Shown: positions 2,735 to 23,741 of the stretch, in pieces
Numbering within the stretch: the stretch's first letter is position 1
Layout: each line of letters opens with the position of its first letter
Made by a program: the position numbers and the translations under genes
IMG/VR virus record: IMGVR_UViG_3300047457_000805
Coordinates: 1-23,741 of that record
Length of the DNA: 23,741 bases
Origin: a virus
Direction: 5' to 3' (one strand)
Notes under the pieces: model-generated
The model's input: only the letters and a program-made list of their open reading frames with translations
The model's database searches: none
Told to the model about the DNA's origin: nothing

Positions 2735-2764
2735 AACCCAAATCCTTTCTCTTTACATCACACA

Positions 2765-2971
2765 TCACACATCAAACGTCCGAAACATTTCACCGTCCGA
2801 ATGTGTGTCTTTCAGACACACACACATTTCGGACGCTATGAAATTTTGTTCGATGGCGTTTTCGGACAGCTCAGGACGCATTTTCGGACGCTTAAAGGAC
2901 AAAACATCAACTTTAGGACACCCTAATTCGGACGCTAAAACATCACTTTCGGACATTCGGACGCTTAACAT
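2765..2971 (-). CDS. Possible 68-aa protein overlapping the iterons
   Basis: The frame starts at an ATG overlapping the primase stop as TGATG and has AGGAAGG close upstream, so re-initiation is plausible. It begins MLSVRMSESDVLASELG, is acidic, and matches no family I know. Its whole length is made of the DNA repeats described for the iteron cluster, which appear in different reading frames (SVR, ASE, KRPK), so the protein sequence looks like a by-product of the DNA. Its translation signals are good, its protein-level support poor. Confidence 0.35.
   Translation of the reverse strand: MLSVRMSESDVLASELGCPKVDVLSFKRPKMRPELSENAIEQNFIASEMCVCLKDTHSDGEMFRTFDV
2794..2835. repeat. Long imperfect inverted repeat in the iteron region
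   Basis: The left arm 2794-2810 (CGTCCGAATGTGTGTCT) and right arm 2814-2835 are complementary around a TTC loop, with a few extra bases in the right arm. The outer eight bases of each arm are one iteron, in opposite orientation. It could extrude as a cruciform or form an RNA hairpin; there is no T run, so it is not an obvious terminator. Confidence 0.6.
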
Positions 2972-7003: not shown

Positions 7004-8074
7004 TCAAAGTGAGGTCAAGTTTGGCGCGGGTTTGCGCCCAAGTGTAAGTCCACTTGATTCAGCGGTGACCTTATCCGCGAATGCTTGATATACATCTGGA
7101 AATTTTTTCTCTAGTTGCGCTGGCGTGATCGGTACGGTTTTTACGGCACCCTTATGCGCACTGAGTAATCCCGCCATCAGCTCATCGCTTTGCCATTTGC
7201 GCGTTGCGCGTTTCGGTATAAGCGTCCAATCCTGCAACTCACGCCCTGCTTGCAGCGCGTTTGTTACGCGCTCTTTGATGGCATCAATCGTGTGTAGCGC
7301 ATCGTCTGCCACATTCATCATCGCGTTCAACGCTTCATTAGTCGCTTCATCAATTTGCTTTGGCGTAACGCCAGCGAACGATTCAACACGCGCTATTTTT
7401 GCCGGGCACTTTGACCTGGCCTGGCACCAGCGGCAATGCTCACCTTCATTGGTTGGTGGGAATGGTGCCAGCGTATCGCGCAGCGCCGGCTCAAACACAT
7501 TGGCGGACCAATCAATAAGTTCGGCTTTGGTCATAAACGCCAAACTGATCTGCGGTTCTTGCGTTGGCTGAATAATCGCAAGCGTAATATTCTTCACGCT
7601 TGCCGGTGCCTTTTGCAATGCGCCTAACGCGTAAATCTTAAGTTGCGGACCTTCAACGTCCACCTTAATGCGACCTGTTTTAAGGTCTCCAACAACCAAG
7701 TCAACATCGTTAAAGCAAATAAGATCGGCAGTCCCATACACATCAGCACCAGCGTAATTAGGAATCCTAAGACGCTCCTCGATGAGGCAAGCACTTTCCA
7801 TGCGCATTTCCAGTTCGCCCGCAAAGTCCGTATAGACCTCGGCCCAAGACGCCATCTCTTCGCTAATCTCAACACCTTCAAATTCCTTTCCAACAAATGT
7901 ATGCGGCGCTGATCCTGTCAGCATCACTGTTTCCGCCAATGCGTGTACCGCTGTTCCAATCTTTGCGGCGTCTCCGGCTTCGCGTGGCGGCACACCTCGT
8001 GAGAGTTTGATTGATGCCGGGCACGCTATCCATCGCTCGGCGGCTGATGGTGACCACTCTGAGTGTACGTTCAT
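7004..8074 (-). CDS. DUF2800 RecB/Cas4-like PD-(D/E)XK nuclease
   Basis: This 356-aa protein shows the RecB-family nuclease core: H44 in GTAVHALAE, D117 in YGTADLI, and D130-x-K132 in VVGDLKTG. Cysteines at 18, 214, 217 and 223 (ACPAS, HCRWCQARSKCPA) match the Fe-S cluster arrangement of Cas4/AddB-type enzymes. Such phage proteins probably act as exonucleases in recombination or genome processing. The ATG has AAGGA upstream and overlaps the HNH gene stop as ATGA. The next gene downstream is the putative ssDNA-binding protein, consistent with an exonuclease plus binding-protein pair. Family assignment is firm, exact biochemical role inferred. Confidence 0.88.
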   Translation of the reverse strand: MNVHSEWSPSAAERWIACPASIKLSRGVPPREAGDAAKIGTAVHALAETVMLTGSAPHTFVGKEFEGVEISEEMASWAEVYTDFAGELEMRMESACLIEERLRIPNYAGADVYGTADLICFNDVDLVVGDLKTGRIKVDVEGPQLKIYALGALQKAPASVKNITLAIIQPTQEPQISLAFMTKAELIDWSANVFEPALRDTLAPFPPTNEGEHCRWCQARSKCPAKIARVESFAGVTPKQIDEATNEALNAMMNVADDALHTIDAIKERVTNALQAGRELQDWTLIPKRATRKWQSDELMAGLLSAHKGAVKTVPITPAQLEKKFPDVYQAFADKVTAESSGLTLGRKPAPNLTSL

Positions 8075-8457
8075 GTCTTGTTCCTTTTCTGTTTAAGTTT
8101 TAATTTTTTGCGTGCTAACTTGCGCTCTTCGTAATGCAAGATGCGATGGCAGTTTGAGCACACGGCGATGCACTTCTTAATTTCTTCAAACGCTTTCGCG
8201 ATAGCACCATCTTTAACAAGTTGATTGACGCTGTACTTTGGCGGCGAACGATCAACATGGTGGAAGTCAATAACGGCTTCATGTTGAATGCCACATCGTT
8301 CGCATGAAAGCGTAGACTTAAACACTTGCCACTTTTTGCGCAACAAGCGTCTTGATGCGAGCACTGCCTTGATTGTTTTTTCGCGGTTGTTTTCGTAATG
8401 ACGCTTGGCGTAAATCTTTTGCTTGGTTGCTTTAACCTTCGGGTCTTTGTACGGCAA
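8071..8457 (-). CDS. HNH endonuclease, TTG start
   Basis: This is a 128-aa HNH nuclease. The N-terminus is very basic and helical (PYKDPKVKATKQKIYAKRHY). The catalytic part carries CERC, DFHHVD and C-x-AVCSNCHRILHYEE: the paired Cys that bind a structural zinc and the His, Asn and His of the beta-beta-alpha metal fold. I choose the TTG at 8457 because GGAGG lies eight bases upstream and because homologues start with PYKDP. A longer frame to 8532 would run through the GNAT gene. The start lies 26 bases inside the end of the acetyltransferase gene. It could be a free-standing homing endonuclease or a packaging/recombination helper; nothing near it looks interrupted. Confidence 0.85.
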   Translation of the reverse strand: MPYKDPKVKATKQKIYAKRHYENNREKTIKAVLASRRLLRKKWQVFKSTLSCERCGIQHEAVIDFHHVDRSPPKYSVNQLVKDGAIAKAFEEIKKCIAVCSNCHRILHYEERKLARKKLKLKQKRNKT

Positions 8458-8875
8458 GCGTTTTCCTCCAGTACAACGTGTTTGGCAACCCCCAAGGGTG
8501 TTCCGGATCGAACATTCTGAACCCCGTGGCAATCAACGCATTGGCTGATGCCACATTGTCTGTTGTATCGGTAATAGCCTCCGTCAACCCTAAGTCCTTG
8601 GCGAACTTTAAGCGCTCTCGGATCAACTTCTTTTGCAGCCCCCGGCCACGAAACGCTTCCAGCGTACCGGCCCTGGCTAAGTAAACGGCCTGCGGCGTTT
8701 TGCTGGATTGCAGCATCGCTGCGAATCCGGCTAACCGTCCGTCGCAATAAGCCACCCACCACCAACCGTTTTTTGGACTCAATACCGTGTCCAGCGGCAA
8801 GCATTCTTTTTGCATGAACCGAATGGCTTGCTCCGTCGAGTGCGACATGTTGTTGACGTGGCGGATTTTGAACAT
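8432..8875 (-). CDS. GNAT-family N-acetyltransferase
   Basis: This 147-aa protein has the GNAT fold: a beta strand with WWWVAYCDGRLAGFAAML, then the acetyl-CoA pyrophosphate loop RGRGLQKKLI (about 78-87), and a C-terminal NVASANALIATGFRMF strand typical of the family. It would move an acetyl group from acetyl-CoA to an amine; the target (protein, sugar or small molecule) is not evident. The ATG at 8875 follows GGAGG at 13 bases, slightly long. A TTG four codons earlier is too close to it. A 266-codon open frame on the same strand overlaps this gene and the next but shows no family features. Its place between the glycosyltransferases and the nucleases leaves its partner open. Confidence 0.82.
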   Translation of the reverse strand: MFKIRHVNNMSHSTEQAIRFMQKECLPLDTVLSPKNGWWWVAYCDGRLAGFAAMLQSSKTPQAVYLARAGTLEAFRGRGLQKKLIRERLKFAKDLGLTEAITDTTDNVASANALIATGFRMFDPEHPWGLPNTLYWRKTLAVQRPEG

Positions 8876-8911
8876 TGAACATTCCAAAGCCTCCGCATTG
8901 TGCTATAAAAA

Positions 8912-9166
8912 TCATGTCAAATCAACGTCAAGGGTCCATGACCGAGGCCATAGATAGCAAGTTTTGTCCATCTTCAATTGCGCGTGCCGTTCACGCAGCC
9001 AAGTTGTCGTGCGCTCAATGCCACCAGGCGCTACCCAGTAATGCCGCTTGCTGTAATGCGGTACATAGGGCAGGCCTTGCAGCTCAAACATAGGCACCAG
9101 TTCGCGGTCTGCCAATTTGTTCGTATCAATCATTCCATTTATCCAGATAACGTTTTGCACTTTCAT
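8912..9166 (-). CDS. Hypothetical protein (84 aa)
   Basis: This small protein begins MKVQNVIWINGMIDTNKLAD and is rich in Tyr and Trp (LPYVPHYSKRHYWVAPGG). No family is recognised. The ATG at 9166 has GAGG close upstream and lies 41 bases inside the end of the preceding glycosyltransferase gene, so it is probably co-translated. The position suggests it accompanies the glycosyltransferases, but this is only inference. Confidence 0.6.
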   Translation of the reverse strand: MKVQNVIWINGMIDTNKLADRELVPMFELQGLPYVPHYSKRHYWVAPGGIERTTTWLRERHAQLKMDKTCYLWPRSWTLDVDLT

Positions 9167-9806
9167 TCCAAGCCTCACCCATCACGCCTTGCGAGTGATG
9201 GATCACGGAAATCGATGACACATAGATTGACAGTTCCTTAGCTGTAAATTGGCGGCAAATGTCCATGTCGTAATGATGGAAGGTGAATTGCTCATCAAAT
9301 CTTATATCGTTGTCATGGAAGGTTTTTGAGTAAGCCGCCATGAACAAACCATCAATCAATTTCACTTCACGATTTGGCGATGCAAACACATCCCAACTCG
9401 TTAGATATTCACCGTTGCCACGCGCTACGCAACCGGCCCATGATTGGCGATCTGACAACGTACCTTCAGTGTCCGTAATGGCCCATGATGTTTGGCCTGG
9501 TGATGGTTGACAGTTGCCCGCTAAACCAACCAAGTGATGGTCATCGAGTGACGCGCCTAAGCGCATGTACCAATACCAATCAACAATCTCAACATCGTCA
9601 TGCACAAATACAAGCAACGCCGGATCGTTCTTGGCGGCTTCAATGGCTTCGTTATAACGTTGGCAAAGTCCAGCAGTATTGTTTGTGAACAACTGCGCTT
9701 CGATAAACGAAAGATGCGAAAAGCGCTGAATCGTTACGCCTAACGGCGTTCCTGCGAAGTCCTTCCTATTGTGGCGAGTACACGCCACGATTCTTATCGG
9801 AATCAT
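9126..9806 (-). CDS. Glycosyltransferase, GT-A/GT2-like (second of two)
   Basis: This 226-aa protein has GT-A features: an N-terminal strand IRIVACTRHN, a helix YNEAIEAAKN, then a strand ending in FVHDDVEI (D70, D71, the DxD-like metal site), and a later region with MDICRQF and VIHHSQG resembling the acceptor side of GT2 enzymes. It would transfer a sugar from a nucleotide donor; donor and acceptor are unknown. It resembles the preceding gene product (YNxAIE, the DD motif, HH near the end), so the two may be old paralogues. I choose the ATG at 9806, which overlaps the preceding stop as ATGA and has GGGGG upstream; an ATG at 9818 is possible. Confidence 0.75.
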   Translation of the reverse strand: MIPIRIVACTRHNRKDFAGTPLGVTIQRFSHLSFIEAQLFTNNTAGLCQRYNEAIEAAKNDPALLVFVHDDVEIVDWYWYMRLGASLDDHHLVGLAGNCQPSPGQTSWAITDTEGTLSDRQSWAGCVARGNGEYLTSWDVFASPNREVKLIDGLFMAAYSKTFHDNDIRFDEQFTFHHYDMDICRQFTAKELSIYVSSISVIHHSQGVMGEAWNESAKRYLDKWND

Positions 9807-10459
9807 TCGAGCCCCCATTTTTCAACGTAATTTGGCCTGTTCTCTTTAAGCCATGGCATTGATTGTTCAAGATTTGATTGCATGTCAACACCAATCGTCA
9901 TCGAACCAACGTGGTGTATGTAGCTTCGGCTAATCCAATGCTTAAAGCCAATCTCTGCAAGATCGGCGCACATCACATCATCGCTAAACCAATTTAGTGG
10001 TGGAAATTGAACTTGCTCAAACGCGCCACGCGGCAACCATGCAAACAAAGGCGATACAACAGCAACTTTCCTGACCGCTCCTTCGCTCTTCCATCGCATA
10101 CCAACAAACTGATCACGATCGCCTATCGGAACGCGAATGTTTTGGTTTGGCCTTACATAGTCGGAACGCGCTGCAACAAGACCCAATTTGTGACCGCAAA
10201 GTTTTCCAAGCGCCTGAACATCTTCCATCAGCAATCGATACGAATAAGGCGTAAGCACAATGTCATCATTGGCGATGATTACACCTTCGTCATCCTTGGA
10301 CATAAAGCGCTCAATCGCTCGGTTGTAGTCATCACCAAACGTTGGCCCTTTCCCGTTCTCGACGCAAAGGTCAACTTCTGGCGCATAAGCGTCAACGCTT
10401 GCCGCCAAAACGTGTAACGATCCCTTGTCAGGCTTGATCGTTGACACAATCATTTTCAT
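9803..10459 (-). CDS. Glycosyltransferase, GT-A-like (first of two)
   Basis: This 218-aa protein begins MKMIVSTIKPDKGSLHVLAA. It contains DYNRAIERFM followed by the strand GVIIANDDIVLTP, whose Asn-Asp-Asp is placed as the DxD metal motif. The second half holds NWFSDDVMCADL and SYIHHVGSMT. This fits a small GT2-like transferase acting on a nucleotide sugar in the host cytoplasm. The start at 10459 overlaps the previous stop as ATGA; the ATG at 10465 has better spacing from AAGGA and is equally possible. Together with its paralogue and the amino-sugar genes at 5040-6385 it suggests glycan synthesis or transfer by the phage (inference). Confidence 0.7.
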   Translation of the reverse strand: MKMIVSTIKPDKGSLHVLAASVDAYAPEVDLCVENGKGPTFGDDYNRAIERFMSKDDEGVIIANDDIVLTPYSYRLLMEDVQALGKLCGHKLGLVAARSDYVRPNQNIRVPIGDRDQFVGMRWKSEGAVRKVAVVSPLFAWLPRGAFEQVQFPPLNWFSDDVMCADLAEIGFKHWISRSYIHHVGSMTIGVDMQSNLEQSMPWLKENRPNYVEKWGLE

Positions 10460-10749
10460 GCCCATTCGCCAATCCTTTTTAGGCACTCAAGTGCGCGACG
10501 TCGAACAACTGAATCGTTAAAACGTCCATAACTTTCTAAACCTTTGAGCGTTTCAACACAGTCGGCCAAATTCTCAAGAGCGACGTTTAGTCGCTTTTCG
10601 AGTTCGCTTACTTCAGCGCTGGCTTTTGGTGTTCTACCTTTTTTTGATGCTATTGCCTCGAATCCAAACGTTTCGTCTGCCTGTTCTGAGCGGGCATTCT
10701 CTTCCCTGGTTACAGTTCCCGTTGCAACAATCGTCACTTTTTGTTCCAT
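10456..10749 (-). CDS. Hypothetical protein (97 aa), coiled-coil tendency
   Basis: The protein starts MEQKVTIVATGTVTREENAR and has a leucine-rich helical stretch at about 45-72 (VSELEKRLNVALENLADCVE) that could form a coiled coil, followed by a basic end (VVRRRALECLKRIG). No known domain is seen. The ATG at 10749 has AAGGG six bases upstream, better than the open-frame extension to 10815. Its stop overlaps the first glycosyltransferase start. Confidence 0.6.
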   Translation of the reverse strand: MEQKVTIVATGTVTREENARSEQADETFGFEAIASKKGRTPKASAEVSELEKRLNVALENLADCVETLKGLESYGRFNDSVVRRRALECLKRIGEWA

Positions 10750-10824
10750 TGCGATCCCTTTCAGGTTGGCGAGACAATGCCCGCCATAAAGCGTTGAGTG
10801 AAAAGTTTTTAACAAAAGGCATCT

Positions 10825-11073
10825 TCATCGCTGCAACAGGTAACGTGCAATCTGTCCAAGCATTAAGACACCGCCAAAGTAAAGCGAACCAAGCAAAAGC
10901 AATTTGGCTTGCCTGTCGCGGATTGCATAAGCCGGTACGCGCTTAAACGTAAAGACAGACTGAATCCACAATTGATCATCCGCCAAATAGTTTGGCTTTG
11001 GCGGTTCATAGGAAGATCCAATCTTTGGCCGATCTACGACAACCACGGTTTCACCATTGACTTGCACTAGCAT
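10825..11073 (-). CDS. Small membrane-anchored protein (82 aa)
   Basis: The soluble N-terminal part (MLVQVNGETVVVVDRPKIGS) and a Pro-rich stretch lead to a C-terminal hydrophobic segment (LLLLGSLYFGGVLMLG, about 58-73) that is probably one transmembrane helix, with a short basic tail. No family is recognised. The ATG overlaps the preceding stop as TGATG and is served by AAAGGA. It lies in an early-type block, but nothing defines a function. Confidence 0.6.
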   Translation of the reverse strand: MLVQVNGETVVVVDRPKIGSSYEPPKPNYLADDQLWIQSVFTFKRVPAYAIRDRQAKLLLLGSLYFGGVLMLGQIARYLLQR

Positions 11074-11264
11074 CACATGATCCTTTGCAAGACGGTCATG
11101 GCTTGACCACGCACCTGATCAGTCACTTGACCGCCAAGACGTTCAACGTCGGTTAACTCGCCAATGAATTGCCTGGCGGTGCGTAACTTGCGATCTGAAT
11201 CGGCTGCGATTTGGCGGGTATACGCCAGCAACTCCTTCAGGTTCTCCACTTCCTGTGTACCCAT
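11073..11264 (-). CDS. Small helical protein (63 aa)
   Basis: MGTQEVENLKELLAYTRQIA and the following residues predict a mostly helical, charged protein without membrane segment or known motif. GGAG lies eight bases before the ATG, and the gene is packed between the resolvase and the membrane protein, which supports its reality. Function unknown. Confidence 0.6.
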   Translation of the reverse strand: MGTQEVENLKELLAYTRQIAADSDRKLRTARQFIGELTDVERLGGQVTDQVRGQAMTVLQRIM

Positions 11265-11275
11265 CGTTTTAACTC

Positions 11276-11752
11276 CTATTGCATCGAACCATATAAAGCA
11301 ATCAGCGCAGCGTCAGCACGTCCGTTATCCTTAACACGGCTAAACGCTGAACTCATTTCGGGAAACATTTGCATCGCCAGGGCGCGTGCGCCTTCTTTGC
11401 CGCCTGTTAGTCGCACAGCGCGTTGCCATGTCAGTGGCGGTACAAAGTGATAGCGAATCTTGAGACTTGCCAATACACCTTCCACGTTACCAAGCGAGCG
11501 TCCGAAGTTAAACATGGACGTTACACCTTGACCTGGCATGGCGGACACTTGCTCAATGAAGCATTCGCACTCATGGTCAATTAAGAATGCCGCTAACTCC
11601 GTATGGAGTTCGTGCGGCGCAACAAAGCGTTTCACTGACTTGCCAACCTTACGTTCAACCGTTGGCATGTCAAAGACGCTTACAAGTTTCTGACCTTGAA
11701 CGGCTGCGATAGCGCCGCTCAAACCTGGATCAATACCGAGAATGATTTTCAT
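11276..11752 (-). CDS. RuvC-like Holliday junction resolvase
   Basis: This 158-aa protein has the RNase H-like RuvC fold: LGIDPGLSGAIA with D8 on strand one, FIEQV with E67, and GRADAALIALYG with D147 as acidic metal ligands. It is close to the size of E. coli RuvC. Phage enzymes of this type cut branched DNA before packaging. It is the first gene after the late terminator, with 57 bases between terminator and start, so a promoter may lie there. I choose the ATG at 11752, where the conserved strand begins; its Shine-Dalgarno is poor. A TTG three codons earlier is possible. Confidence 0.88.
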   Translation of the reverse strand: MKIILGIDPGLSGAIAAVQGQKLVSVFDMPTVERKVGKSVKRFVAPHELHTELAAFLIDHECECFIEQVSAMPGQGVTSMFNFGRSLGNVEGVLASLKIRYHFVPPLTWQRAVRLTGGKEGARALAMQMFPEMSSAFSRVKDNGRADAALIALYGSMQ

Positions 11753-11892: not shown

Positions 11893-14082
11893 CTATTGCA
11901 GCAATCCTGCAAGACGTTTCTCTTCGTCAGTCATGGTGTCGGCTGTACCCATCACATCAAGCCTAAACGGTTGCTCTGGCGCGGCGGCTTGCCCGGCCAA
12001 CTGGCCGAGTGCCCCGCCGACCATCGGACGCGTCGTTGCTCGAGCAACTTCACCGCGGGCCATGGCCTCTTGTTGCGTGGCTAATCGCCGCATTAAAGCA
12101 TCAAGACTTTGTGGTGTTAGCGGCGTTAGCAACTCGCGCCCAAGTATTTCCGCCACATCGCCAACGTTTCCTGCGCCGCGTTGCATGGCCTGCCCAAGCA
12201 ACTGTGACGCAATAGGTTGTAAATTACCTTGGATAATGGCTGATCCAACAGCCGCACCCGTTGGGCCTGCCTGTTCGGCCATTTCCGCGGCCAGAGGCGC
12301 TGTGCGCGATCCGGCCAGGATTCTGTTGCGCACTTCAGTAAATCGCGCTTCTTCGCCAAGTTGATTACGGAACGTGTCAAATGATTGTGTGTCAGGAAAC
12401 GCGGCACGCAAGCGGCCAAGCGTTTGCGTGTTATCAAACAAACGTGTTACGTCTCGAGCGGTTCCAAACTCTCTAGTAATGCGATCGGCTTGTATCTTGG
12501 CGGCATCAACAACACCAGCGCGGAACATATTGCGTTCCATGTCGGTAAGTTTGTTGAAGTCTGCCGCCACTTCACGCCAGTCGTTCTCAGGCATTGTGAA
12601 TACTTTTCTGCCTTGATCGATGGCGTCTTTAAGCGCAGCATCACCGGCGAACGCAGCTCGAGCGTCCTTGTACTTTGGCACTAAAGTGTCCAGGCGATCA
12701 AGAAAATCGTTCTTGGCGTTACGAATAATCCTAGCCTCTGTGGAGGCAAACCCTTCTTTCGTTTGCTTGGCATTGATTACGTCATCAAGACCGCGCTTAA
12801 CCCAATCAAGAATCTTTACATTTGGCAAATCTTCCAGTTCGCCATAAACAGGCAGGCCATCTTCATCGTAGATTGGACGCCCATTACCATCAGTCTTAAA
12901 GCGATAAATTTGCGGCAGTGACTCACCTTCATTGGAGGCCATGCTAACCGCCCGAGCGTAAGCCTTCTTAAAGGCCGGGCGATCTAAATAAGAAAGCAAT
13001 TCTTTATCGTTCAACACGCCAACTGGCGTATCGTAGGCTTCGGCATAAAGCGGAGCTGCTTTGCGTTTTTGCTGCTCAGTCAAATCACGCAATAGCATAT
13101 TGGTGTTTTGCAAGCGCTCTTGCGCGGCAGCCGCCAAGTCCGCAATGACACGATCAGATTGCGTACGAACACGTTCTTGCAAAAACTCGCCCCGCGGTCC
13201 TTTGGCGGCACCAGGCGTATTAACAGCACCAGCGGCACGCGACAATAGTGATTCGCCGCCAATGTCAGCAAGTGTCGTTTGTTTTCCTGGTGTTGCCTGC
13301 ATCAATCTGCGCTGCAATTCGGCTGGCGTAAGTTGGTCGCGTTCCATACCTTGAATGATAAGTTGCGCCGCTTTTTGTTGCGCAGCAGCACCGCTTCTTC
13401 CTAATATGTCACGCGCCTTGCCAACGCCATAGCCTGCAAGTCCCATGGCAGGCGGTATGGCGGCACCAACACCAGCACCAAGACCAGCACCTATAGCCGC
13501 ACCTTGAAGCGTATTAACTGCACCGCCTTCGGCTTGCCCTGCGCCACCCAACGCGCCACCGGCAGCACCCATCAGCGCACCGCGGCCAACTTGTGCGCCA
13601 ATGTTTGTGCCTTGTAACGCGGTTGGTAGTGCGCTTGTAACGGCCTGTGCGCCTCGGGTTACTGCACCGGCAAGTTGGGGAGCGCGTGCGGCAACGGCTG
13701 GCACAGCAGCACCCATCGTTACAGCAGCAGGCAATAAAGCACCAGCAAGTTCACTACTTGCCGCGGCCACTGGACTGCGCTTTTGGTATTCCTTGATGCC
13801 TTCGCGCACTGCTTCAACGTTGTCTTGGTATGAGCCTTTTGTAAACGCCGCTTTAACCGCAGCCTCAATCTCATCGGAAAAGCCAAACGTTAAGCCTTGC
13901 ATGAACGTGCGAAACGCGCCTGCTTCAACTTCGCCAACGCCTCGACGTTGCCTCGCCATAGCGCCAAGGTAACGCGATGGCGTATAACCTTCTAAGCGCA
14001 AGTAAGCCTCCATGTCCGACTGCGGAGCGCCTTGCTCAAACATCTTGCGCATGTTGGCGGAAACCCGCTCAAGGTTCGTCAT
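11893..14082 (-). CDS. Large internal virion / DNA-ejection-like protein (729 aa)
   Basis: The N-terminal 100 residues are helical and charged. From about 105 to 230 comes a long Ala/Gly-rich stretch with glycine-zipper pattern (GALMGAAGGALGGAG, GAAIGAGLGAGVGAAIP), likely membrane-inserting. The rest is helical, with a final Ala/Gln-rich tail. Such architecture is typical of large ejection proteins of podoviruses that pass into the host envelope during DNA entry. It is the last late gene, as gp16 is in P22. No lysozyme motif is seen. GGAG lies seven bases before the ATG. The role is inferred from composition and order, not from recognised homology. Confidence 0.7.
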   Translation of the reverse strand: MTNLERVSANMRKMFEQGAPQSDMEAYLRLEGYTPSRYLGAMARQRRGVGEVEAGAFRTFMQGLTFGFSDEIEAAVKAAFTKGSYQDNVEAVREGIKEYQKRSPVAAASSELAGALLPAAVTMGAAVPAVAARAPQLAGAVTRGAQAVTSALPTALQGTNIGAQVGRGALMGAAGGALGGAGQAEGGAVNTLQGAAIGAGLGAGVGAAIPPAMGLAGYGVGKARDILGRSGAAAQQKAAQLIIQGMERDQLTPAELQRRLMQATPGKQTTLADIGGESLLSRAAGAVNTPGAAKGPRGEFLQERVRTQSDRVIADLAAAAQERLQNTNMLLRDLTEQQKRKAAPLYAEAYDTPVGVLNDKELLSYLDRPAFKKAYARAVSMASNEGESLPQIYRFKTDGNGRPIYDEDGLPVYGELEDLPNVKILDWVKRGLDDVINAKQTKEGFASTEARIIRNAKNDFLDRLDTLVPKYKDARAAFAGDAALKDAIDQGRKVFTMPENDWREVAADFNKLTDMERNMFRAGVVDAAKIQADRITREFGTARDVTRLFDNTQTLGRLRAAFPDTQSFDTFRNQLGEEARFTEVRNRILAGSRTAPLAAEMAEQAGPTGAAVGSAIIQGNLQPIASQLLGQAMQRGAGNVGDVAEILGRELLTPLTPQSLDALMRRLATQQEAMARGEVARATTRPMVGGALGQLAGQAAAPEQPFRLDVMGTADTMTDEEKRLAGLLQ

Positions 14083-14085
14083 TAC

Positions 14086-15618
14086 TTATCTCCTTGGCGT
14101 AAGACCGTATTGATTCATGATACTTGGTGCGCCTGGTATGGGGACAGAGTCTGACAATGATGGATACTTAAGACCTTGCCCCGAATATTGCAATTCACGT
14201 TCCTTTTCAATCCTTCTTATTTCTTCAGCCAAAAGTCTTAGCTTGACTTTAGCAGCGTCTGGATTATCTGTAGGCAAAGGAATGAACGGTTTTAGCCTCG
14301 ATGATTCGCCAACAGTAACGGTTGCCCCAGATGTATCTTTAATCTGTAAACTTCCAATTCTTGCCACACGCGCACGCGCTTCAATCTCTTCGTCTTTAGA
14401 TAGCGGGTCTCTAATTGATTGAGGAATGTTTCCAACTACAGGACCGATAGCTCTAGGGTTGTCTGTGATTGACTTTATCGCTAGGTCAATGCTTTCAACT
14501 GCATTTTTATTCTTAATAAACTCTTCCGTTAGCGCAGGCGTAAGGGTTTGTCCTTTACCCATTAATGGCTGACCCATTGTGTCGCCAATCGTTGGCCCAA
14601 CAATTTGCCTTGTTGGTTGCGTCATGGTCTTTGATGTATAGAACATTCTTCCGGCGGCATCCGTAACCAGGTCAACGTCTCCTTGTGCTGCACGCAACGC
14701 TGACAAATCAACTTCCCGCCCTCTAAGTCCAAGCTCACGTTCTCTAAAAATATTTTGCTGCGCTGTTTGCCGTTGATCAAATGCAAACTTGCGCTCATTC
14801 AAATCTTGTGCGCTTAAAGCTCTCAAGTTTGTTGCCACCTCGCCTGGCGTCATTTCAACATCGTAGGTGCCAATTGTTTTTCCGGTGTTCTTATCACGAA
14901 TAAGAATCTTGTTTCCTGTCTTAATTTGCTCTTCGTTAGGTTGTGGCGCTACATCAAGCACTTTAATACCGCCACGCTTGCCAACTACATAGCTAACAGG
15001 CCTTCCGCCAATCATGCCCGTGTTGGTTCCTGTGCCGTACTCTTCAGGCTTAACATTTTCACCAATGTACTTGACTGCTTCTGCATAAGGCATTTGCGAC
15101 GCAATCAATCGCTGCTCTGGCGTAAGGCTTGCAAAAGGTCTTGCCGATTCAACGGCTTTTTCTTGCGCTCGAGCCGCGGTAACCGTTGGACCCATACCTT
15201 CAGCGCCCATGGCGGCAGCGCCAGCCTGAAACCGTTGCGCCTCAGTTGGTTGCGCTGTTAATGCTTGGCGTAATGCTTGTTCACGAAGTTGTTGCTGCTG
15301 CATTTGAGCCAATTGCATCTGAAACAACTGCCTTTGCAACCCTTGTTGCTGCACACCTTGCAAGCCTTCAGCCAATGTACCGCCACGCGCAACGGTTGAG
15401 CCTAATTGCGCAAGCGTTAGTAATCGCTGCCTGCGGCGCTCTTCCTCATCCATTGGCATGGCGGGCAAGCCAGGGTATTGCTGCAACCGATCAAGTCCTG
15501 ATCCAAAACGATCAAGCAAGCCTGGCGCATAACCTTGTGATGCAGCTTCAGGCGAGTTCGGCACTTGCTGACCGCTGTAGCTTCCGCTGCCCGTAAAAAA
15601 GTCTAGTAAAGACGCCAT
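14086..15618 (-). CDS. Virion protein, probable ejection protein (510 aa)
   Basis: The N-terminal 75 residues are Gly/Ser/Pro-rich. Residues about 85-125 are very Gln/Leu-rich (QRQLFQMQLAQMQQQQLREQ), followed by a mixed middle and an Arg/Glu-rich helical end (LRLLAEEIRRIEKERELQ). No enzymatic motif is visible. It lies between the S74 protein and the large glycine-zipper protein, the place where P22 encodes gp20. The ATG has AGGGG upstream; neighbours are two to three bases away. Assignment is by composition and synteny. Confidence 0.65.
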   Translation of the reverse strand: MASLLDFFTGSGSYSGQQVPNSPEAASQGYAPGLLDRFGSGLDRLQQYPGLPAMPMDEEERRRQRLLTLAQLGSTVARGGTLAEGLQGVQQQGLQRQLFQMQLAQMQQQQLREQALRQALTAQPTEAQRFQAGAAAMGAEGMGPTVTAARAQEKAVESARPFASLTPEQRLIASQMPYAEAVKYIGENVKPEEYGTGTNTGMIGGRPVSYVVGKRGGIKVLDVAPQPNEEQIKTGNKILIRDKNTGKTIGTYDVEMTPGEVATNLRALSAQDLNERKFAFDQRQTAQQNIFRERELGLRGREVDLSALRAAQGDVDLVTDAAGRMFYTSKTMTQPTRQIVGPTIGDTMGQPLMGKGQTLTPALTEEFIKNKNAVESIDLAIKSITDNPRAIGPVVGNIPQSIRDPLSKDEEIEARARVARIGSLQIKDTSGATVTVGESSRLKPFIPLPTDNPDAAKVKLRLLAEEIRRIEKERELQYSGQGLKYPSLSDSVPIPGAPSIMNQYGLTPRR

Positions 15619-15620
15619 GC

Positions 15621-16805
15621 TTATCCCCTTGTCCTGCGGTCAAGTTCCTTTACAGCCTCAACCAGTAACCCTGTCACTTTCGGGTAATTCACTGCCATCA
15701 TGCCGTTATCGCCTTGCGCTACAGCATCAGGCATGACACGGCGAACGTCTTGCGCCATCACACCACCAGTTCGTTGATCATCGCCCTTGTAGTTGTAGTC
15801 ATAACCAGTAAGTTTCCCAATTTGGGAGAGCGGCGAATCCATGCGATCAATGTTTTCCTTCATGCGCTTGTCTGACCCAAACAAGTAAGCCAATGACGCC
15901 AATGTGCTAACGCCCTGGCCGATCTGCTGACCTGGTGACATGCGCTGCGATGTGACTTGCTCGTTTTGCGCAGGAAACTGACCAAGACCAGCTTGAAGAA
16001 TGCCAAGTTGCTGCAACGGATATTGCTGTTGGCGTAAAAAGTCTTGATACGCCAAATCAAGTTGCTGTTGTTGCAAGCCTTGCTCAATGCCGCCAACTTG
16101 CATAAGTTGTTGCGCTTGTGCTTGGCGTAAAGCATCTTCAGCGCCACCGGCACTAAGCAATTGCTGTGCTTGTTGTTGGCGGATTGCTTGTTGCTGTGCG
16201 CCTAACCCTGCCAGTTGCGCAGCCTGCGCCTGGCGAGCCGCAACGTCTTGCTGCGCAAGTTGCGCCGCCTGACCAAACCCTTGATAAGCTAAATTGCCAG
16301 CCGTTTGGCCTGCGGCCATGAGTGCTGCTTGATTCGTTAAGCCTTCAACAATGCCCTGGCGCGATCCGCCAAAGGCGCGGGCGCGAGTGGCGGCGGCTAA
16401 ATTGCCAAGTTGCTGCTGTTGGCGCTGCGTTTCAATGTTTTGCAGCGCCGTGTTGATCACTTGCGTTTGGAATGGATTCACAAACTGACCAATGTTTTGC
16501 GCAATGCCGGTCGGTTGCATCGCCAACGACGTTGCGTAATCAACCGTTGCGGTTCCAGGACCAACTTGCCCGGCTTGCGCTAACTGCTGTAAGCCAAGTG
16601 TTGTGGCGGAAGTTGGTTCAACTTGCGCAAGACGCTGTAATCCGGCGAGTGTTGCTTGTGTAGGCGCCGCGATACGCGGGCCTTGGTATGGCGTATAAGG
16701 TTGATTGGCGATTTGTTGCGCTCTGCCATATACGTCGAGCGCTGCCGTCTTAAACTCTGGATCAAGTTCAACGCGAGTTGTTTGACCGCCGCCGCTTTTG
16801 CTCAT
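15621..16805 (-). CDS. Gln-rich virion protein with C-terminal peptidase S74 chaperone
   Basis: The first 300 residues are Gln/Ala-rich and mostly helical, probably coiled coil (QQQAIRQQQAQQLLSAGG and similar). The end, from about residue 310, is a peptidase S74 intramolecular chaperone: GSDKRMKENI carries the cleavage-site Ser (S311) and Lys (K316), followed by GYDYNYKG, GGVMAQDV and LLVEAVKELD. S74 domains trimerise fibre or spike proteins and then cut themselves off. Here the domain sits on a protein in the ejection-protein block rather than on an obvious fibre. I use the ATG at 16805, which has AAGGAG eight bases upstream and overlaps the preceding stop as ATGA; the frame is open a little further. 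Confidence 0.8.
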   Translation of the reverse strand: MSKSGGGQTTRVELDPEFKTAALDVYGRAQQIANQPYTPYQGPRIAAPTQATLAGLQRLAQVEPTSATTLGLQQLAQAGQVGPGTATVDYATSLAMQPTGIAQNIGQFVNPFQTQVINTALQNIETQRQQQQLGNLAAATRARAFGGSRQGIVEGLTNQAALMAAGQTAGNLAYQGFGQAAQLAQQDVAARQAQAAQLAGLGAQQQAIRQQQAQQLLSAGGAEDALRQAQAQQLMQVGGIEQGLQQQQLDLAYQDFLRQQQYPLQQLGILQAGLGQFPAQNEQVTSQRMSPGQQIGQGVSTLASLAYLFGSDKRMKENIDRMDSPLSQIGKLTGYDYNYKGDDQRTGGVMAQDVRRVMPDAVAQGDNGMMAVNYPKVTGLLVEAVKELDRRTRG

Positions 16806-17176
16806 AGTGATAACTCCTTGGACATGACCGTCCAGCATTCCTTGTAATCTTCATCCGCCAAAAACGAACGAATCCAACCTCGTCTTCCGGATAATGTAAT
16901 CATGTTGCATTGGATATGACGCGCCCACGATTCAATAATAGGGCGCATGGCTGAGAGTTCTTCCAGTTTGCCGCCAGCTAGAAAGTAATGAAGCGATTTC
17001 TTTTGCGGGTAAACGTGGACCTCAGTAATGACTGCTGATTGCTGACCAGGCCAAAATTGCATCGCCCTGTCAATAACCGCTTTGCGTATGTCTTCAATGG
17101 TATGCGTTCCATGGCTAAAGCGCAACGCCGCTTCGAGGTATGGAGAACATCGATCCCAATGCGCTAAATCATTCAC
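16802..17176 (-). CDS. Conserved phage protein of tail-accessory region (124 aa)
   Basis: The protein begins MNDLAHWDRCSPYLEAALRF and contains GTHTIEDIRKAV, HYFLAGGKLEEL and ITLSGRRGWIRSFL. I recognise this pattern from many aquatic podovirus genomes, where it is annotated only as hypothetical. The fold may be GNAT-like (small alpha/beta with a GRRGW loop), but this is uncertain. It lies where P22 encodes gp14. Both ends overlap the neighbours by ATGA, so its dose is probably tied to theirs. Confidence 0.7.
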   Translation of the reverse strand: MNDLAHWDRCSPYLEAALRFSHGTHTIEDIRKAVIDRAMQFWPGQQSAVITEVHVYPQKKSLHYFLAGGKLEELSAMRPIIESWARHIQCNMITLSGRRGWIRSFLADEDYKECWTVMSKELSL

Positions 17177-18423
17177 GCTGCGCCAAATCCGAGTAATGTT
17201 TGGCCCGCCACGGAAGGAAAACCGCCAGCCAATAATCCTTGGCTAAACGCGCCTGGAGCAGTGCCTAGCATTGCCATAGGCTGCGCTCGTTGAGCGGACG
17301 CCACACGCGCAAGCTCTAGCAGGTCTTCATTCTTTTGCTGACCAACGCCTGTGTTGATAACGCTCAACGCTTGATCGTAATTCAATCCGCTATTGAGCAA
17401 ATCATTGAAGTAAGACGCTTTGCCTTCAGCGTCACGCGTTTGCAGTTCAGGCGCCATCCGTACAGTCTGACCGAGTTGGCGGAGAAAGTTGAATTGTTGC
17501 GGCGTTTGAAAGCCAATCGATGATCCAACTATGTTTTGAATCTCCTGGTCACTGTAACCCTGGCCGCGCAACTGGTTATAAAACGCAGCTTTATCAAGTG
17601 CTGTTTTAGTAGACACGTCGCGCACTTGATTCATCAACGCTTGGTTTGCCGCCAGCAATCCAGCCGTTGGCGACTCATTGGCAAGCAATCCACGATTGAC
17701 CATACCGGTCACAATGTTTGCAGTTGGCGCTGCCGCCTGCATGGCGGCAAGATTTGCCGCTTGCGTTTGCCGTACTTCGGATGCCGTTGGGATATCGCTA
17801 AAAAGCCCTTGCTCCTGGCCGTAACCATAGCCGAGCAAACCCGTTGGTGCTAACCCTGCGCGTGCTTCGTAGTCGCCAAGTGGCGCAATGTTGTATTGCA
17901 TTTCGCCTGACTCAAGTCGAGTTGCGCCAGTGCGCTCGGTCGTGCTGCGTCCCGTTCTTGGAATGGGAATGCCAAGTTGCTCAAATGACGTGGCCTCAAC
18001 TGGTGTTGGGTCGAGCCTTACAATTTCACCACGAATCTGCGCTGGCGAGTAACCCTGCTTGAGCAAAGTTTGCACATAGCCTTTTTTCGTTTCAAGCGAT
18101 GCGTCACGATTCCAATCAAGGCCAAAAATCTTCAGTGTGCGCGACTCTGTTGGCTTTGCCGTTGTTGTCGTTGTAGTTGTTGCGCCACTTGTTGCCCCGC
18201 CAGCGGTTGCTCCTCCAGCATTTGTTTCTGGAAACGCTAACCCAAGTAAATTGAAATTTGATTCGGTTAGCGCCGCTTTATTTGGCTCAAGTCTTGAAAT
18301 CTCAGCGCGAATGTCGGCAATGTCATATCCTGAATTGATCATATCCTGGACAAGATTTTGCTTTGCACCTAGTGATGCGGTTGTGTCCCACTTAAAAGTT
18401 TCAAATGGATATAGGATTGCCAT
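17173..18423 (-). CDS. Virion protein with a four-fold helical repeat (416 aa)
   Basis: A motif of about 29 residues occurs four times: GAKQNLVQDMINSGYDIADI (about residue 19), ETKKGYVQTLLKQGYSPAQI (about 110), DKAAFYNQLRGQGYSDQEIQ (about 280) and GKASYFNDLLNSGLNYDQAL (about 336). The first two lie in longer duplicated units of about 55 residues ending in SRLEP/VRLDP and a FxxLGxxxP segment. A Thr-rich linker (ATTTTTTTAKP) separates them. No membrane or catalytic motif is visible. The gene is part of the late block after the gp10-like gene and probably encodes a tail or internal component. AAGGA precedes the ATG. Confidence 0.75.
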   Translation of the reverse strand: MAILYPFETFKWDTTASLGAKQNLVQDMINSGYDIADIRAEISRLEPNKAALTESNFNLLGLAFPETNAGGATAGGATSGATTTTTTTAKPTESRTLKIFGLDWNRDASLETKKGYVQTLLKQGYSPAQIRGEIVRLDPTPVEATSFEQLGIPIPRTGRSTTERTGATRLESGEMQYNIAPLGDYEARAGLAPTGLLGYGYGQEQGLFSDIPTASEVRQTQAANLAAMQAAAPTANIVTGMVNRGLLANESPTAGLLAANQALMNQVRDVSTKTALDKAAFYNQLRGQGYSDQEIQNIVGSSIGFQTPQQFNFLRQLGQTVRMAPELQTRDAEGKASYFNDLLNSGLNYDQALSVINTGVGQQKNEDLLELARVASAQRAQPMAMLGTAPGAFSQGLLAGGFPSVAGQTLLGFGAA

Positions 18424-18433
18424 CTCAGATTCC

Positions 18434-18643
18434 TTACATGGTAGTGGCGCTTAAGACGCCAGCGTTTGACACCGCCAGTGAGTAACGCGTGCCATTAGGC
18501 GAACGAATGATGATCAGTTCATCCTGACCCATTTCGATGTTAGCGTTCTTCTTGCGGTTTAATGCGTCAGCCAATTCCAAAGCACGCCGAAACGATTGCT
18601 CCTCGATTTGGTTGTATTCAACACCAGGGCGCGGTAGTTTCAT
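18434..18643 (-). CDS. Small late protein (69 aa)
   Basis: MKLPRPGVEYNQIEEQSFRR starts a charged helix followed by a short beta-rich end (ELIIIRSPNGTRYSLAVSN). The ATG at 18643 overlaps the gp10-like stop as ATGA, which I prefer over the longer frame to 18691. Proteins beginning KLPRPG-Y are common small genes of podovirus late regions; function is unknown. Confidence 0.65.
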   Translation of the reverse strand: MKLPRPGVEYNQIEEQSFRRALELADALNRKKNANIEMGQDELIIIRSPNGTRYSLAVSNAGVLSATTM

Positions 18644-20127
18644 CGCTTGCTGCCTTGCCTGGCGTTGAATCGCATGATGCCAACTCGCCAATCGGTATTG
18701 TTATTGCCATTGACGCGGACCTTCATTTGCCTGCCCTGTAAGCGCACTGACGTTGGGTTGGCTAACGAATACGGACCATGCGTTGTTTCTGTAGCGGTAG
18801 GATACAAGCGCGTTTTGAACGTTGCCGTAACGTCGCCAAGTGTTAAATCATCCGGTATGAGTTGATCCGCCACAAGCAAATTGTCGCCCATGCCAATTTG
18901 ATATGGCCCCGATTCAGCGTATGGTGCGCTGCCATCATAGTTCCATCCGGCCTCATGCTCATAAACATAACCATCAACGGAACACATCAATGGCGATGTG
19001 AATACGCCTTGACCTGTACCGACAGTGCGTGCAAGCGTTCCGATTGTCCAATGATTTTCTCTGTAATTCCACACCACATAACTGTCAATTTCGTTTGATT
19101 CGGATGACGGGTAAAACCAAATGATTTCGGCAAATTTTGAGTTGTGAATTGCGTTGACTTTGCTGATTTGCCCGCGATTGATGTTGCTAAATACATAGTC
19201 AGAAACATCAGAGGAGAGCGGTTTGACGTAACCGTCATAAACCCAAAACCCGGATGATCCCATCCAAACGGCAAACGTGTCGGCAGCGGCAACGCTCAAC
19301 ACGCCCACAGCGCCACACCCTGTCCCTACTTTTTCAAACCCATAGACGTATGGCGGACCTTGGTACTGCGCCAAGTGGGCATCCACATCCGTCAAGATTA
19401 ATACGCCACCGCGAACGCGCCTAGCGCAAATAATTGATCCTGGCGTTGAAAGGATAAAGTCACCGGCCTGGTTCGTTGCTGCTGGCGTCCATACGGTGTT
19501 GTCTTCCTGGTCGGACCATTGCACTTTGCGCGGATCGCCGCCAGCGCCAAGCGCAAACAGAAAACGCTCTTCAGAGACAATCAATCCTTTGCAACTCGTT
19601 GGCGCATTGGTAATGGCAACGGCTTTGGTTGGCGTGGCAAAGTCTAACTGCCACTCGTATAACTTTCCGTCATAGTCTGAGCACGCCACAAGATATTGGC
19701 CCCAGTTGTCCATTGACCAAGTGGTGGCAGGCAGCACGCCGTTAACGCTTGAAGGGATGCGTGCAACACCATAGGCTTGTTCGCCGTAATCTTGATTGCC
19801 GTAACCGGTCGACCCTAAAGCGTCAGTGCGCCCTGCGCTAAAACTTGTTGGTGTAATGTCAGCCTGATCGCCATCGCCCTGGTAAGCGTAAAGTTTTGAA
19901 GCCGTTCCAACTGCGAGCCAAATATTTGCTGAGTTATCGCGCCAGGCGTACATACCACGAGGAACGCCTGAAGCCTGAGCGGTTGTCCATTTACGCCATC
20001 CGCCCATAGGGCGAAGCGTACCTTCAAACCAACGCACAAGGTTTGCGTCATACCAACGCCCTTGAGACTGATATTCAGTTCCGTTTCGGTAAATGCCTGG
20101 CGGTAATTTGATGGGGACAAGTGGCAT
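18640..20127 (-). CDS. P22 gp10-like tail hub / DNA-stabilisation protein
   Basis: This 495-aa protein is beta-rich throughout, with repeated aromatic strands (GVPRGMYAWRDNSANIWLAV, WGQYLVACSDYDGKLYEW, FLFALGAGGDPRKVQWSDQE, SYVVWNYRENHWTIGT), the pattern of a beta-propeller. N-terminal KLPPGIYRNGTEYQSQGRWY is typical of a podovirus family related to the P22 packaged-DNA stabilisation protein gp10 (about 470 aa), which plugs the portal and holds tail spikes. It is followed by small and ejection-type genes, as in P22. The start has no clear Shine-Dalgarno and lies two bases after the lysozyme stop, so re-initiation is likely. Confidence 0.72.
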   Translation of the reverse strand: MPLVPIKLPPGIYRNGTEYQSQGRWYDANLVRWFEGTLRPMGGWRKWTTAQASGVPRGMYAWRDNSANIWLAVGTASKLYAYQGDGDQADITPTSFSAGRTDALGSTGYGNQDYGEQAYGVARIPSSVNGVLPATTWSMDNWGQYLVACSDYDGKLYEWQLDFATPTKAVAITNAPTSCKGLIVSEERFLFALGAGGDPRKVQWSDQEDNTVWTPAATNQAGDFILSTPGSIICARRVRGGVLILTDVDAHLAQYQGPPYVYGFEKVGTGCGAVGVLSVAAADTFAVWMGSSGFWVYDGYVKPLSSDVSDYVFSNINRGQISKVNAIHNSKFAEIIWFYPSSESNEIDSYVVWNYRENHWTIGTLARTVGTGQGVFTSPLMCSVDGYVYEHEAGWNYDGSAPYAESGPYQIGMGDNLLVADQLIPDDLTLGDVTATFKTRLYPTATETTHGPYSLANPTSVRLQGRQMKVRVNGNNNTDWRVGIMRFNARQGSKR

Positions 20128-21763: not shown

Positions 21764-23161
21764 TTAAGCTCCTTTGAGGGTTGCGATTTCAGCTTCGGCT
21801 GCTTGTAAGCGGGTGTTGAGTTGCTTGATGGCGTTGAGCATGTGCCAGAACACATTGTCGGAATCGACTGACAGCACGCCTGTTGACTCTTCCTTCACGC
21901 AGTCAGGGCAGACTTCTTGAAGTTCCTGAGCAATAACGCCGAGTTGGATACCGGTCTTTTGAATTGCGTCTTGCGGCTTGAGTTCAGCATCAACTTCTTC
22001 CGGCAAACGGTACTCAAAGTTGCGAACCCGAATCTGGCTGATCTTGTCTAAGCCTTCGTTGTTATCAACGATGTTTTTCTTCAGACGCCGGTCAGAAGTG
22101 GTTGACCACGAAGATGAGTTGTTGCCTTGGTAGACGCCGCCAGTATTTGGGTTGATAAACCCAGTGCTATCACCTTTGCCTGTTATTTGCGTACCACTCT
22201 GATTGCCAATAACGATTTGCCAACTACCTGATGCAGCCGATGCGGTAGCGTTTCCAATGCAAGTGTTCACTTGCCCCGTCGTGATTGTATTTCCCGCTTG
22301 ATAGCCAACAGCGGTGTTTTGTGCGCCAGTGGTGACGGCGGCGAGTGTCTGATAACCAACAGCGGTGCTGTTTGCGCCGGTGGTGTTGTCGATAAGCGCT
22401 TGGTGACCGACAGCAGTGTTGTTGGAGGAGGTGGTGAGTCGGAGCGCTTCATGACCAACTGCGACGTTGTAATTGCCGCTGCTGTTGGCACGAAGTGAAG
22501 CGTTCCCGATAGCTACGTTATAAGAACCTGAGGTGTTTGAATGAAGCGCTGCCCATCCGTTATTACTATCCTCTGTGCCAAAAGCAACGTTATTGACGCC
22601 AGTGTTGTTATTACCTAATGCTGTACGTCCAACAGCGACATTCGCAGACGCCGTGTTATACCGTAAGGCAGCGTAACCAACGGCAACATTTGAATTACCT
22701 GTACTGTTGGTGGAAGCCGCTTGAAAACCAAGAGCGACGTTATAACCACCTGTAGTGTTGCCGGAAGCTGCTTGATAACCAACAGCGGTATTGCTTGGGC
22801 CAGTGGTGTTGTTGTAGAGGGCAGCGTATCCTACTGCATGATTAAATGTGCCGGTTGTGTTTGCTTGTCCAGCAAATGCGCCAACAAACAAACTATCACT
22901 AGCCTTGTTGTTTAACCCTGCTTGATAGCCAATCGCTACAAAGTATGAATTTGTTTGGTTTGCATTACCGGCTTGATAACCAACAGTGGTGTTTCCTGCG
23001 CCAGTGGTGTTGTTGTAGAGAGCAAATAAGCCGAGCGCAGCGTTATAGCTACCTGTCGTATTAAGTTGCATCGCAGCGCCACCAATAGCGACGTTCTGCG
23101 TACCCGAAGTGTTTGTGGTTAGCGCGACGGCACCGACAGCGGTGTTGCTGCCGTTTGTGTT
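21764..23161 (-). CDS. Tail fibre, downstream part with S74 chaperone (after frameshift)
   Basis: Repeats of 17 residues (pattern NTAVGYQALxxNTTGxx) run from 23161 to about 22198, followed by a short linker and a peptidase S74 domain. TTSDRRLKKNI holds the cleavage Ser and the Lys, and the domain continues through FEYRLPEE, LGVIAQELQEVCPD and a C-terminal coiled coil (LNTRLQAAEAEIATLKGA). The mature fibre would be a trimer; the S74 part assists folding and is then cut off. An internal ATG exists at 23071, but the repeat pattern continues upstream in the same frame to 23161, where the frame switches to that of the neighbouring segment. I therefore treat both segments as one gene broken by one base. 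Confidence 0.82.
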   Translation of the reverse strand, partial: NTNGSNTAVGAVALTTNTSGTQNVAIGGAAMQLNTTGSYNAALGLFALYNNTTGAGNTTVGYQAGNANQTNSYFVAIGYQAGLNNKASDSLFVGAFAGQANTTGTFNHAVGYAALYNNTTGPSNTAVGYQAASGNTTGGYNVALGFQAASTNSTGNSNVAVGYAALRYNTASANVAVGRTALGNNNTGVNNVAFGTEDSNNGWAALHSNTSGSYNVAIGNASLRANSSGNYNVAVGHEALRLTTSSNNTAVGHQALIDNTTGANSTAVGYQTLAAVTTGAQNTAVGYQAGNTITTGQVNTCIGNATASAASGSWQIVIGNQSGTQITGKGDSTGFINPNTGGVYQGNNSSSWSTTSDRRLKKNIVDNNEGLDKISQIRVRNFEYRLPEEVDAELKPQDAIQKTGIQLGVIAQELQEVCPDCVKEESTGVLSVDSDNVFWHMLNAIKQLNTRLQAAEAEIATLKGA

Positions 23162-23741
23162 GCTGCAAGGGCTTGATAACCGACCGCTGTGCTGTTGTTT
23201 GCGGTGGTGTTGTTGTAGAGGGCGCGATAACCGATGCCGGTATTGTTACTTCCGGTGGTGTTTGCAAACAAAGCCGTATCGCCAACTGCTACAGAATATC
23301 CTGCTGTTGTAGCGGTATATAAAGCATTCACACCAACAGCGGTGTTCTCTACGCCAGTCGTTAAAGCTTGCAATGCCATCCGGCCAACAGCGGTGTTTTG
23401 ACCACCTGTTGCGTTTAGCAATGCTTGATAACCAACAGCGGTGCTGAAGCTTCCGGGATTGCCAGCGGCATTGTTGGCGTAAAGAGACTGATACCCAAAA
23501 GCGACGTTTTGAGTTCCGGAGGTGTTGGAATAAGCCGCCTGATAACCAACAGCGGTGTTGCCGGAAGCGGTGGTGTTGGAGTAAAGGGCTGAAACACCAA
23601 TACCAACATTAGCGGCACCGGAAGAATTAAGGTACAGGGCATCTTTGCCAATGGCGGTGTTGCTTGAGCCAGTATTCGTATACAAAGCAGCAAAACCAAT
23701 TGCGGTGTTGTAAACGCCCGTCTGAAGTGCGTTTAATGAGT
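22198..23741 (-). repeat. Array of about thirty 51-bp (17-residue) repeats
   Basis: At the DNA level, CAACAGCGGTG preceded by TTGATAAC recurs (for example near 22345, 22770, 23431 and 23551). At the protein level each unit has the form N-x-A-V-G-x-x-A-L followed by N-T-T-G, a pattern that suggests a stacked beta-solenoid fibre shaft. The array runs off the right edge. Confidence 0.85.
23119..23741 (-). CDS. Tail fibre, upstream repeat part (5' partial)
   Basis: This frame is open from the right edge (SLNALQTGVYNTAIGFAALY) and carries the same 17-residue repeats until GYQALAAT, after which it reads out of frame to a stop at 23119. The last in-pattern residue is encoded at about 23162. Inserting one base between 23162 and 23161 joins it to the downstream frame and restores the exact 17-residue period (STAVGYQALAANTNGSN). 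The start and any N-terminal tail-binding domain lie outside the window. The break could be a sequencing or assembly error, a real mutation, or variation at a repeat. Confidence 0.75.
   Translation of the reverse strand, partial: SLNALQTGVYNTAIGFAALYTNTGSSNTAIGKDALYLNSSGAANVGIGVSALYSNTTASGNTAVGYQAAYSNTSGTQNVAFGYQSLYANNAAGNPGSFSTAVGYQALLNATGGQNTAVGRMALQALTTGVENTAVGVNALYTATTAGYSVAVGDTALFANTTGSNNTGIGYRALYNNTTANNSTAVGYQALAATQTAATPLSVPSR

Follow-up and report, generated by a model that had tools for sequence, protein, structure and literature searches.

A predicted detachable S74 domain at the C-terminus of a helical ejection-block protein in a podophage-type virus

Peptidase_S74 domains are best known from fibres and spikes, and finding one is routinely taken as the mark of such a protein. 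In the window, by which we mean the whole stretch of 23,741 nucleotides analysed here (IMG/VR virus record IMGVR_UViG_3300047457_000805), an S74 domain ends a Gln/Ala-rich, helical protein encoded in what appears to be the ejection block. What might such a domain be doing on such a protein, and could it be cut off? The gene and its parts lie as follows.

15621–16805, minus strand: candidate first ejection-block gene with a C-terminal S74 domain; 394 aa, helical
16814–16819, minus strand: AAGGAG, putative ribosome-binding site for the 16805 start
15876–16805, minus strand: residues 1–310, Gln/Ala-rich helical module and predicted mature protein (from model, composition and core conservation)
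16359–16373, minus strand: FGGSR of the AFGGSR signature, residues 145–149, invariant in alignments A1 and A2
15876–15950, minus strand: residues 286–310, a low-charge, partly hydrophobic segment before the predicted cut, mostly of low confidence in the model
15624–15875, minus strand: Peptidase_S74 / intramolecular chaperone domain, residues 311–394 (from PF13884, model and fold match to MyRF)
15873–15875, minus strand: codon of Ser311, predicted nucleophile (SD...K motif), with the cut expected between 15876 and 15875
15858–15860, minus strand: codon of Lys316, which would complete the predicted Ser-Lys dyad (by equivalence to MyRF and endoNF)

Read on the plus strand, 15621–16805 has stops throughout. 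The longest minus-strand frame begins at 16838 and would add 11 residues to the protein started at 16805. We consider 16805 the better start, since AAGGAG lies a few bases upstream of it, its ATG overlaps the stop of the preceding gene and, in relatives such as L016, the equivalent Met is the second codon behind a stop, which makes the 11-residue extension impossible in such relatives. Gln accounts for 21% and Ala for 16% of residues 1–310. An AlphaFold2 model built with 68 sequences (mean pLDDT 70.6, pTM 0.35), of moderate confidence in the helical part, places helices upstream of S74 at residues 111–141, 147–219 and 223–275 and no strands; pLDDT is 76–91 in the S74 blocks and below 50 at residues 285–308. 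The initial annotation had described a second S74 domain in the window, sitting on a Gln/Ala-rich helical protein, and on this point the predicted helices and the Pfam match given below agree. A solved-structure search with alignment A1 (14 sequences) returned four S74 matches and two marginal ones, with nothing convincing for the helical part. Foldseek against the PDB gave no match at E <0.001, and VIA-align gave only middling helix matches for the helical part (Z up to 7.2); neither result bears on the novelty of the helical fold. In NCBIfam the gene had no match.

The domain itself is readily recognized. Peptidase_S74 (PF13884) matches residues 311–362 with E 8.1e-13 and 48.9 bits against a cut-off of 22; another Pfam search gave E 8.6e-13. 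The scissile serine predicted at the outset corresponds to Ser311 in the 394-aa numbering, and Lys316, five residues on, completes the dyad. Among the matches listed, the SD...K dyad was present in 63 of 63 distinct S74-bearing members of the family, as counted with a model that was seeded with motif-bearing sequences but by which motif-less matches would still have shown up. The dyad residues are given as S587/K592 in MyRF and S911/K916 in endoNF in a passage of PMC8326128; the same part of that paper reports S74 cutting only in trimers and describes MyRF trimers as driven by a C-terminal coiled coil. The modelled S74 domain superposes on the intramolecular chaperone domain of MyRF (7dc3) with Z 5.4 and an rmsd of 1.5 over 65 residues at 31% identity; the Z score is modest on its own and agrees with the sequence match, so that in the model the domain appears to have this fold. 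Judged by its sequence, the S74 domain looks active. Since its catalytic residues are intact and it is carried by a helical ejection-block protein, one may plausibly expect a fold-and-cleave step ahead of Ser311, and autocleavage between Gly310 and Ser311 is likely.

What kind of protein carries the domain can be approached through its neighbours. From upstream, the operon runs from the gp10-like gene through the 416-aa gene and the GNAT-like gene to the 394-aa S74 gene, the 510-aa gene and the 729-aa gene.

18640–20127, minus strand: gp10-like gene for tail stabilisation, upstream; matches phrog_3287 (virion structural protein) with E 1.8e-78
17173–18423: 416-aa gene between the gp10-like and GNAT-like genes
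16802–17176, minus strand: GNAT-like gene directly upstream, with ATGA overlap, in the position of internal virion protein A
14086–15618, minus strand: 510-aa gene downstream, resembling gp20/gp15 in position and size only
11893–14082, minus strand: 729-aa gene, resembling gp16 in position and size only; matches phrog_5880 (unknown function) with E 1.1e-67

The 510-aa gene matched nothing in Pfam or PHROG. Of 129 relatives' loci, 116 have a homolog of the GNAT-like gene and 119 have one of the gp10-like gene; all same-strand copies (115 and 118, respectively) lie upstream and none downstream. Homologs of the 729-aa gene lie downstream in 36 of the 129 loci. By profile match the GNAT-like gene is related to phiM5_26 and OH_p41; against epsilon15 gp13 and T7 gp13 the same profile gave no convincing match. 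A figure legend in PMC10386132 describes internal virion protein A as homologous to the product of P22 gene 14 and distantly to that of T7, and from this legend and the match to phiM5_26 we infer that the GNAT-like gene encodes internal virion protein A; the profile result with the two gp13 proteins speaks against this identity. The 394-aa protein matches PHROG 4287, which bears the annotation name 'DNA ejection protein', over nearly its whole length (residues 2–377 of 394 against 5–386 of 392, E 5.7e-22); among the matches listed, 47 of the 68 relatives match this PHROG as well, and just 31 of the 68 carry S74. The GenBank entry of the ortholog Sm_phiM5_27 bears the note 'detected in phage particle proteome', and three adjacent internal virion proteins were likewise detected; the presence of an ortholog in virions is supported by annotation, namely that of phiM5.

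Because of the operon slot, the PHROG 4287 match and the proteome note on the PhiM5 ortholog, we consider the protein most likely to be a virion protein of the ejection block and not a fibre or needle; its placement in that block is well supported. Of the position first proposed, the ejection block stands, while 'between gp14-like and gp20-like' is better replaced by the gp7 (P22)/gp14 (T7) slot itself. The initial annotation had also considered a tail needle, against which speak the ejection operon (with a GNAT-like neighbour in 116 of the 129 loci) and the end-to-end match to 'DNA ejection protein'. A P22 gp26-type needle was not matched in Pfam or PHROG, and two genes lie between the gp10-like and the 394-aa gene; this is a weak test. 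More generally, the protein might be an exposed trimeric needle or fibre, as the usual home of S74 would suggest and as the names 'tailspike' or 'tail fiber domain-containing protein' given to several relatives would have it. The model, however, has no beta-structured or receptor-binding region ahead of S74, the gene occupies an ejection slot and matches PHROG 4287, and the S74 domains themselves can be compared with those of true fibres, one of which is encoded in the window.

21764–23071, minus strand: tail fibre that carries the other S74 domain of the window (E 6.2e-14), used for comparison

In a tree of S74 domains, which has only 87 columns and counts L136 in the ejection group, the ejection and fibre labels require 2 changes, against 15.7 when the labels are shuffled. 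With so few changes, repeated borrowing from fibres looks unlikely for the S74 domains of ejection proteins, which seem to form lineages of their own. Given these lineages, the operon slot and the model, we hold an exposed needle or fibre to be highly improbable. The two kinds of S74 also differ in length. Among the matches listed, the 63 family domains measure 66–79 aa in 46 cases, 84 in five, at least 91 in 11 and 24 in one, whereas the fibre-like S74s in the same loci all reach at least 91 aa (17 of 17), most with heptad-like helices at the end. At 66–79 aa, 46 of the 63 would lack room for a coiled coil; the S74 of the window has a short C-terminal helix (residues 374–393) in the AlphaFold2 monomer model. 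Given the trimers needed for cutting in MyRF, this shortness weighs against self-cleavage in the family, and the trimer first proposed for the 394-aa protein is a possibility at most. The tail before S74 is only modestly more hydrophobic in character than the stems ahead of fibre S74 domains (51 vs 12, p 0.012), the 12 non-family rows including L136, itself an ejection-block protein.

The L136 protein (positions 7200–8219 of that locus, Rhizobium phage RHph_N2) is helical-looking, has no AFGGSR core and ends in a short S74; it occupies the same slot, behind an N-acyltransferase-like gene. The tail fibre of the window (21764–23685) is split into two ORFs, 23119–23685 and 21764–23071, in different frames. 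Since both carry the same repeat type, the change of frame probably reflects a frameshift or an error in sequencing. Elsewhere in the window, two adjacent ORFs at 5040–6385 resemble by eye an acyltransferase and an aminotransferase for sugars and may be surface-sugar genes, and the product of 11276–11761 matches phrog_1770 (E 4.2e-35), a RuvC-like Holliday junction resolvase.

Is the fusion a peculiarity of this virus? The helical core is widespread, and in the family alignments its NP and AFGGSR motifs are invariant or nearly so. Named members include vB_OspP_OH p40, phiM5 gp27, Microcystis phage MJing1, Octadecabacter virus DB2 gp18, Caulobacter phage RW and Planktothrix phage Pag-Yong1. Among the matches listed, S74 was matched in 31 of the 68 relatives in alignment A2, and clustering of 265 C-terminally complete proteins at 90% identity gave 167 groups, S74 being present in 63 of these. 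L290 and L291 were left out of the tree, since L291 resembles a frame-broken copy of L290: the loci are near-identical, and the long S74-bearing ORF of L290 (2231–4609) appears as two ORFs in L291 (one at 2231–3211). After their removal, 62 of 165 distinct members among the matches listed carried S74, a biased frequency drawn from three profile scans with the best 80 of at least 600 AFGGSR-pattern matches each. The core tree of these 165 members (among the matches listed) implies 36 changes of S74 status, at least 20 of them imposed by branches whose support reaches 95, although it has few columns and the exact number of changes is soft; a smaller tree (79 rows) implies 15, at least 4 of them forced. 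Members with and without S74 can be very close: the window and L036 are 93% identical over 294 residues, L220 and L241 88% over 232. Hence the fusion, which had been implied to be exceptional, is common in the family and has been gained or lost repeatedly. A crude motif for a muralytic next gene occurred in 8 of 58 S74 loci and 7 of 96 S74-less loci, too few and too crude to relate the two.

Such frequent gain and loss, with S74 absent from over half of the relatives sampled, is what one would also expect if the domain were a neutral C-terminal passenger, tolerated without disturbing the helical part. Selection argues otherwise. The dN/dS of S74 is 0.02–0.07 in seven of eight relatives compared (dS was saturated in the eighth), that of the helical part 0.03–0.13, and purifying selection is stronger on S74 in all seven usable comparisons. 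Together with the invariant dyad, this makes a mere passenger very unlikely.

If S74 were a detachable domain, relatives lacking it might be expected to end near the cut site. We formed 20 pairs, each protein being used in one pair only, and compared the end of the S74-less member with the predicted Ser of its partner. The median offset was 0.5 residue; 13 of 20 pairs fell within 10 residues and 15 within 20, while 5 exceeded 20. In several pairs, L235/L246 among them, end and predicted cut site nearly coincide, while in two the distance is large (+68 and −177). L036, the nearest S74-less relative of the window, ends 17 residues past the cut site in a Gly-rich tail. Such coincidence is expected of a removable C-terminal domain and equally of a simple C-terminal add-on; the dyad and the selection on S74 favour the removable domain.

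In L036 (5528–5898) and L039 (8770–9136), the last part of the ejection gene, where the window has S74, has been exchanged for a Gly-rich tail jointly with the beginning of the next gene, and identity to the window resumes about 250 bases inside the latter. The two loci have nearly the same start of this next gene, and their exchange is probably one event. The joint exchange hints that the S74-bearing end faces the next ejection protein. It would suit a further possibility, namely that S74 stays attached as an oligomerising or docking domain in contact with the portal or with the ejection protein that follows, because it suggests a fit between the C-terminus and the N-terminus of that following protein. 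An attached domain would not, however, account for a catalytic dyad kept in 63 of 63 members (among the matches listed) or for S74-less relatives that stop near the cut site, and the exchange itself probably happened only once. We therefore regard permanent attachment as unlikely.

The reading that we favour, and consider reasonably probable, is that the product of the gene is the first of the ejection (internal virion) proteins in a podophage-type virus, with S74 as a detachable C-terminal pro-domain cut off before Ser311. It is based on what was observed by computation: the architecture, the operon slot, the intact dyad, the selection on S74, its gain and loss and the agreement of the cut site with S74-less ends. 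The oligomer number, the membrane or channel role and actual cleavage we infer. In such a scheme the helical module would fold and oligomerise, and S74, the last 84 residues, would fold last at its end. Ser311 and Lys316 would then cut the Gly310–Ser311 bond and leave a mature protein of 310 aa that ends in the low-charge segment and has the same design as the S74-less relatives. This protein might be packaged near the portal, be ejected early and help to build a channel through the envelope. As to the benefit of a cap, solubility of the tail or control of its assembly are suggestions.

A more tentative idea, possible rather than probable in our view, is that S74 serves ejection proteins as a specialised cap, mobile and able to remove itself, which would hold the oligomer, mask the C-terminal tail that later enters the envelope and then cut itself off in the course of assembly. 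If so, capped and uncapped phages would yield the same mature protein, and S74 would have a use outside fibres and membrane-bound transcription factors. It would also split a fused ejection polyprotein in MW202675 (L135). There a 1185-aa ORF (7998–11555) combines a helical ejection module, a central S74 and a transglycosylase SLT domain, and a cut at the central S74 would part two ejection parts. The combination of S74 with an ejection protein is already in the databases under misleading names: because S74 is routinely read as a fibre or spike mark, such ejection genes are annotated as tailspikes. In our literature searches we found no description of S74 on ejection proteins. Should ejection proteins indeed carry S74 as a removable cap, many annotations would need correcting, and capped and uncapped relatives would offer a natural experiment on how channel-forming proteins are kept soluble until ejection.

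How does this arrangement compare with known systems? The gene order is the same as in epsilon15 (gp12, the GNAT gp13, gp14 and the transglycosylase gp15) and in T7 (gp12–16). Ejection protein sizes are listed in part of PMC8954989 as 229/471/609 for P22 and 229/499/708 for epsilon15, roughly the size order of 310/510/729 found here if S74 is removed. No sequence similarity was detected to T7 gp14, epsilon15 gp14 or P22 gp7, with a single sequence on one side each time, and we therefore propose only a like way of working and not family membership. The protein studied here is longer than these three. P22 gp7 is trimmed too, but at its N-terminus and by a host protease, whereas any trimming here would be C-terminal and by the protein's own domain.

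Among S74 proteins, the intramolecular chaperone domains of endosialidase, the T5 fibre and the phi29 appendage cap these proteins behind beta-stalks. They and MyRF have the domain and the dyad in common with the 394-aa protein. In the latter, by contrast, the upstream part is helical and Gln-rich with no beta-stalk, and the C-terminal coiled coil is short; in most relatives, to judge by length, it is absent. Closest in design are Sinorhizobium phage phiM5 gp27 and Ochrobactrum phage vB_OspP_OH p40, each 29% identical in the family alignment, which share the core, the S74 domain and the gene neighbourhood and are annotated as tailspike or tail fibre domain proteins.
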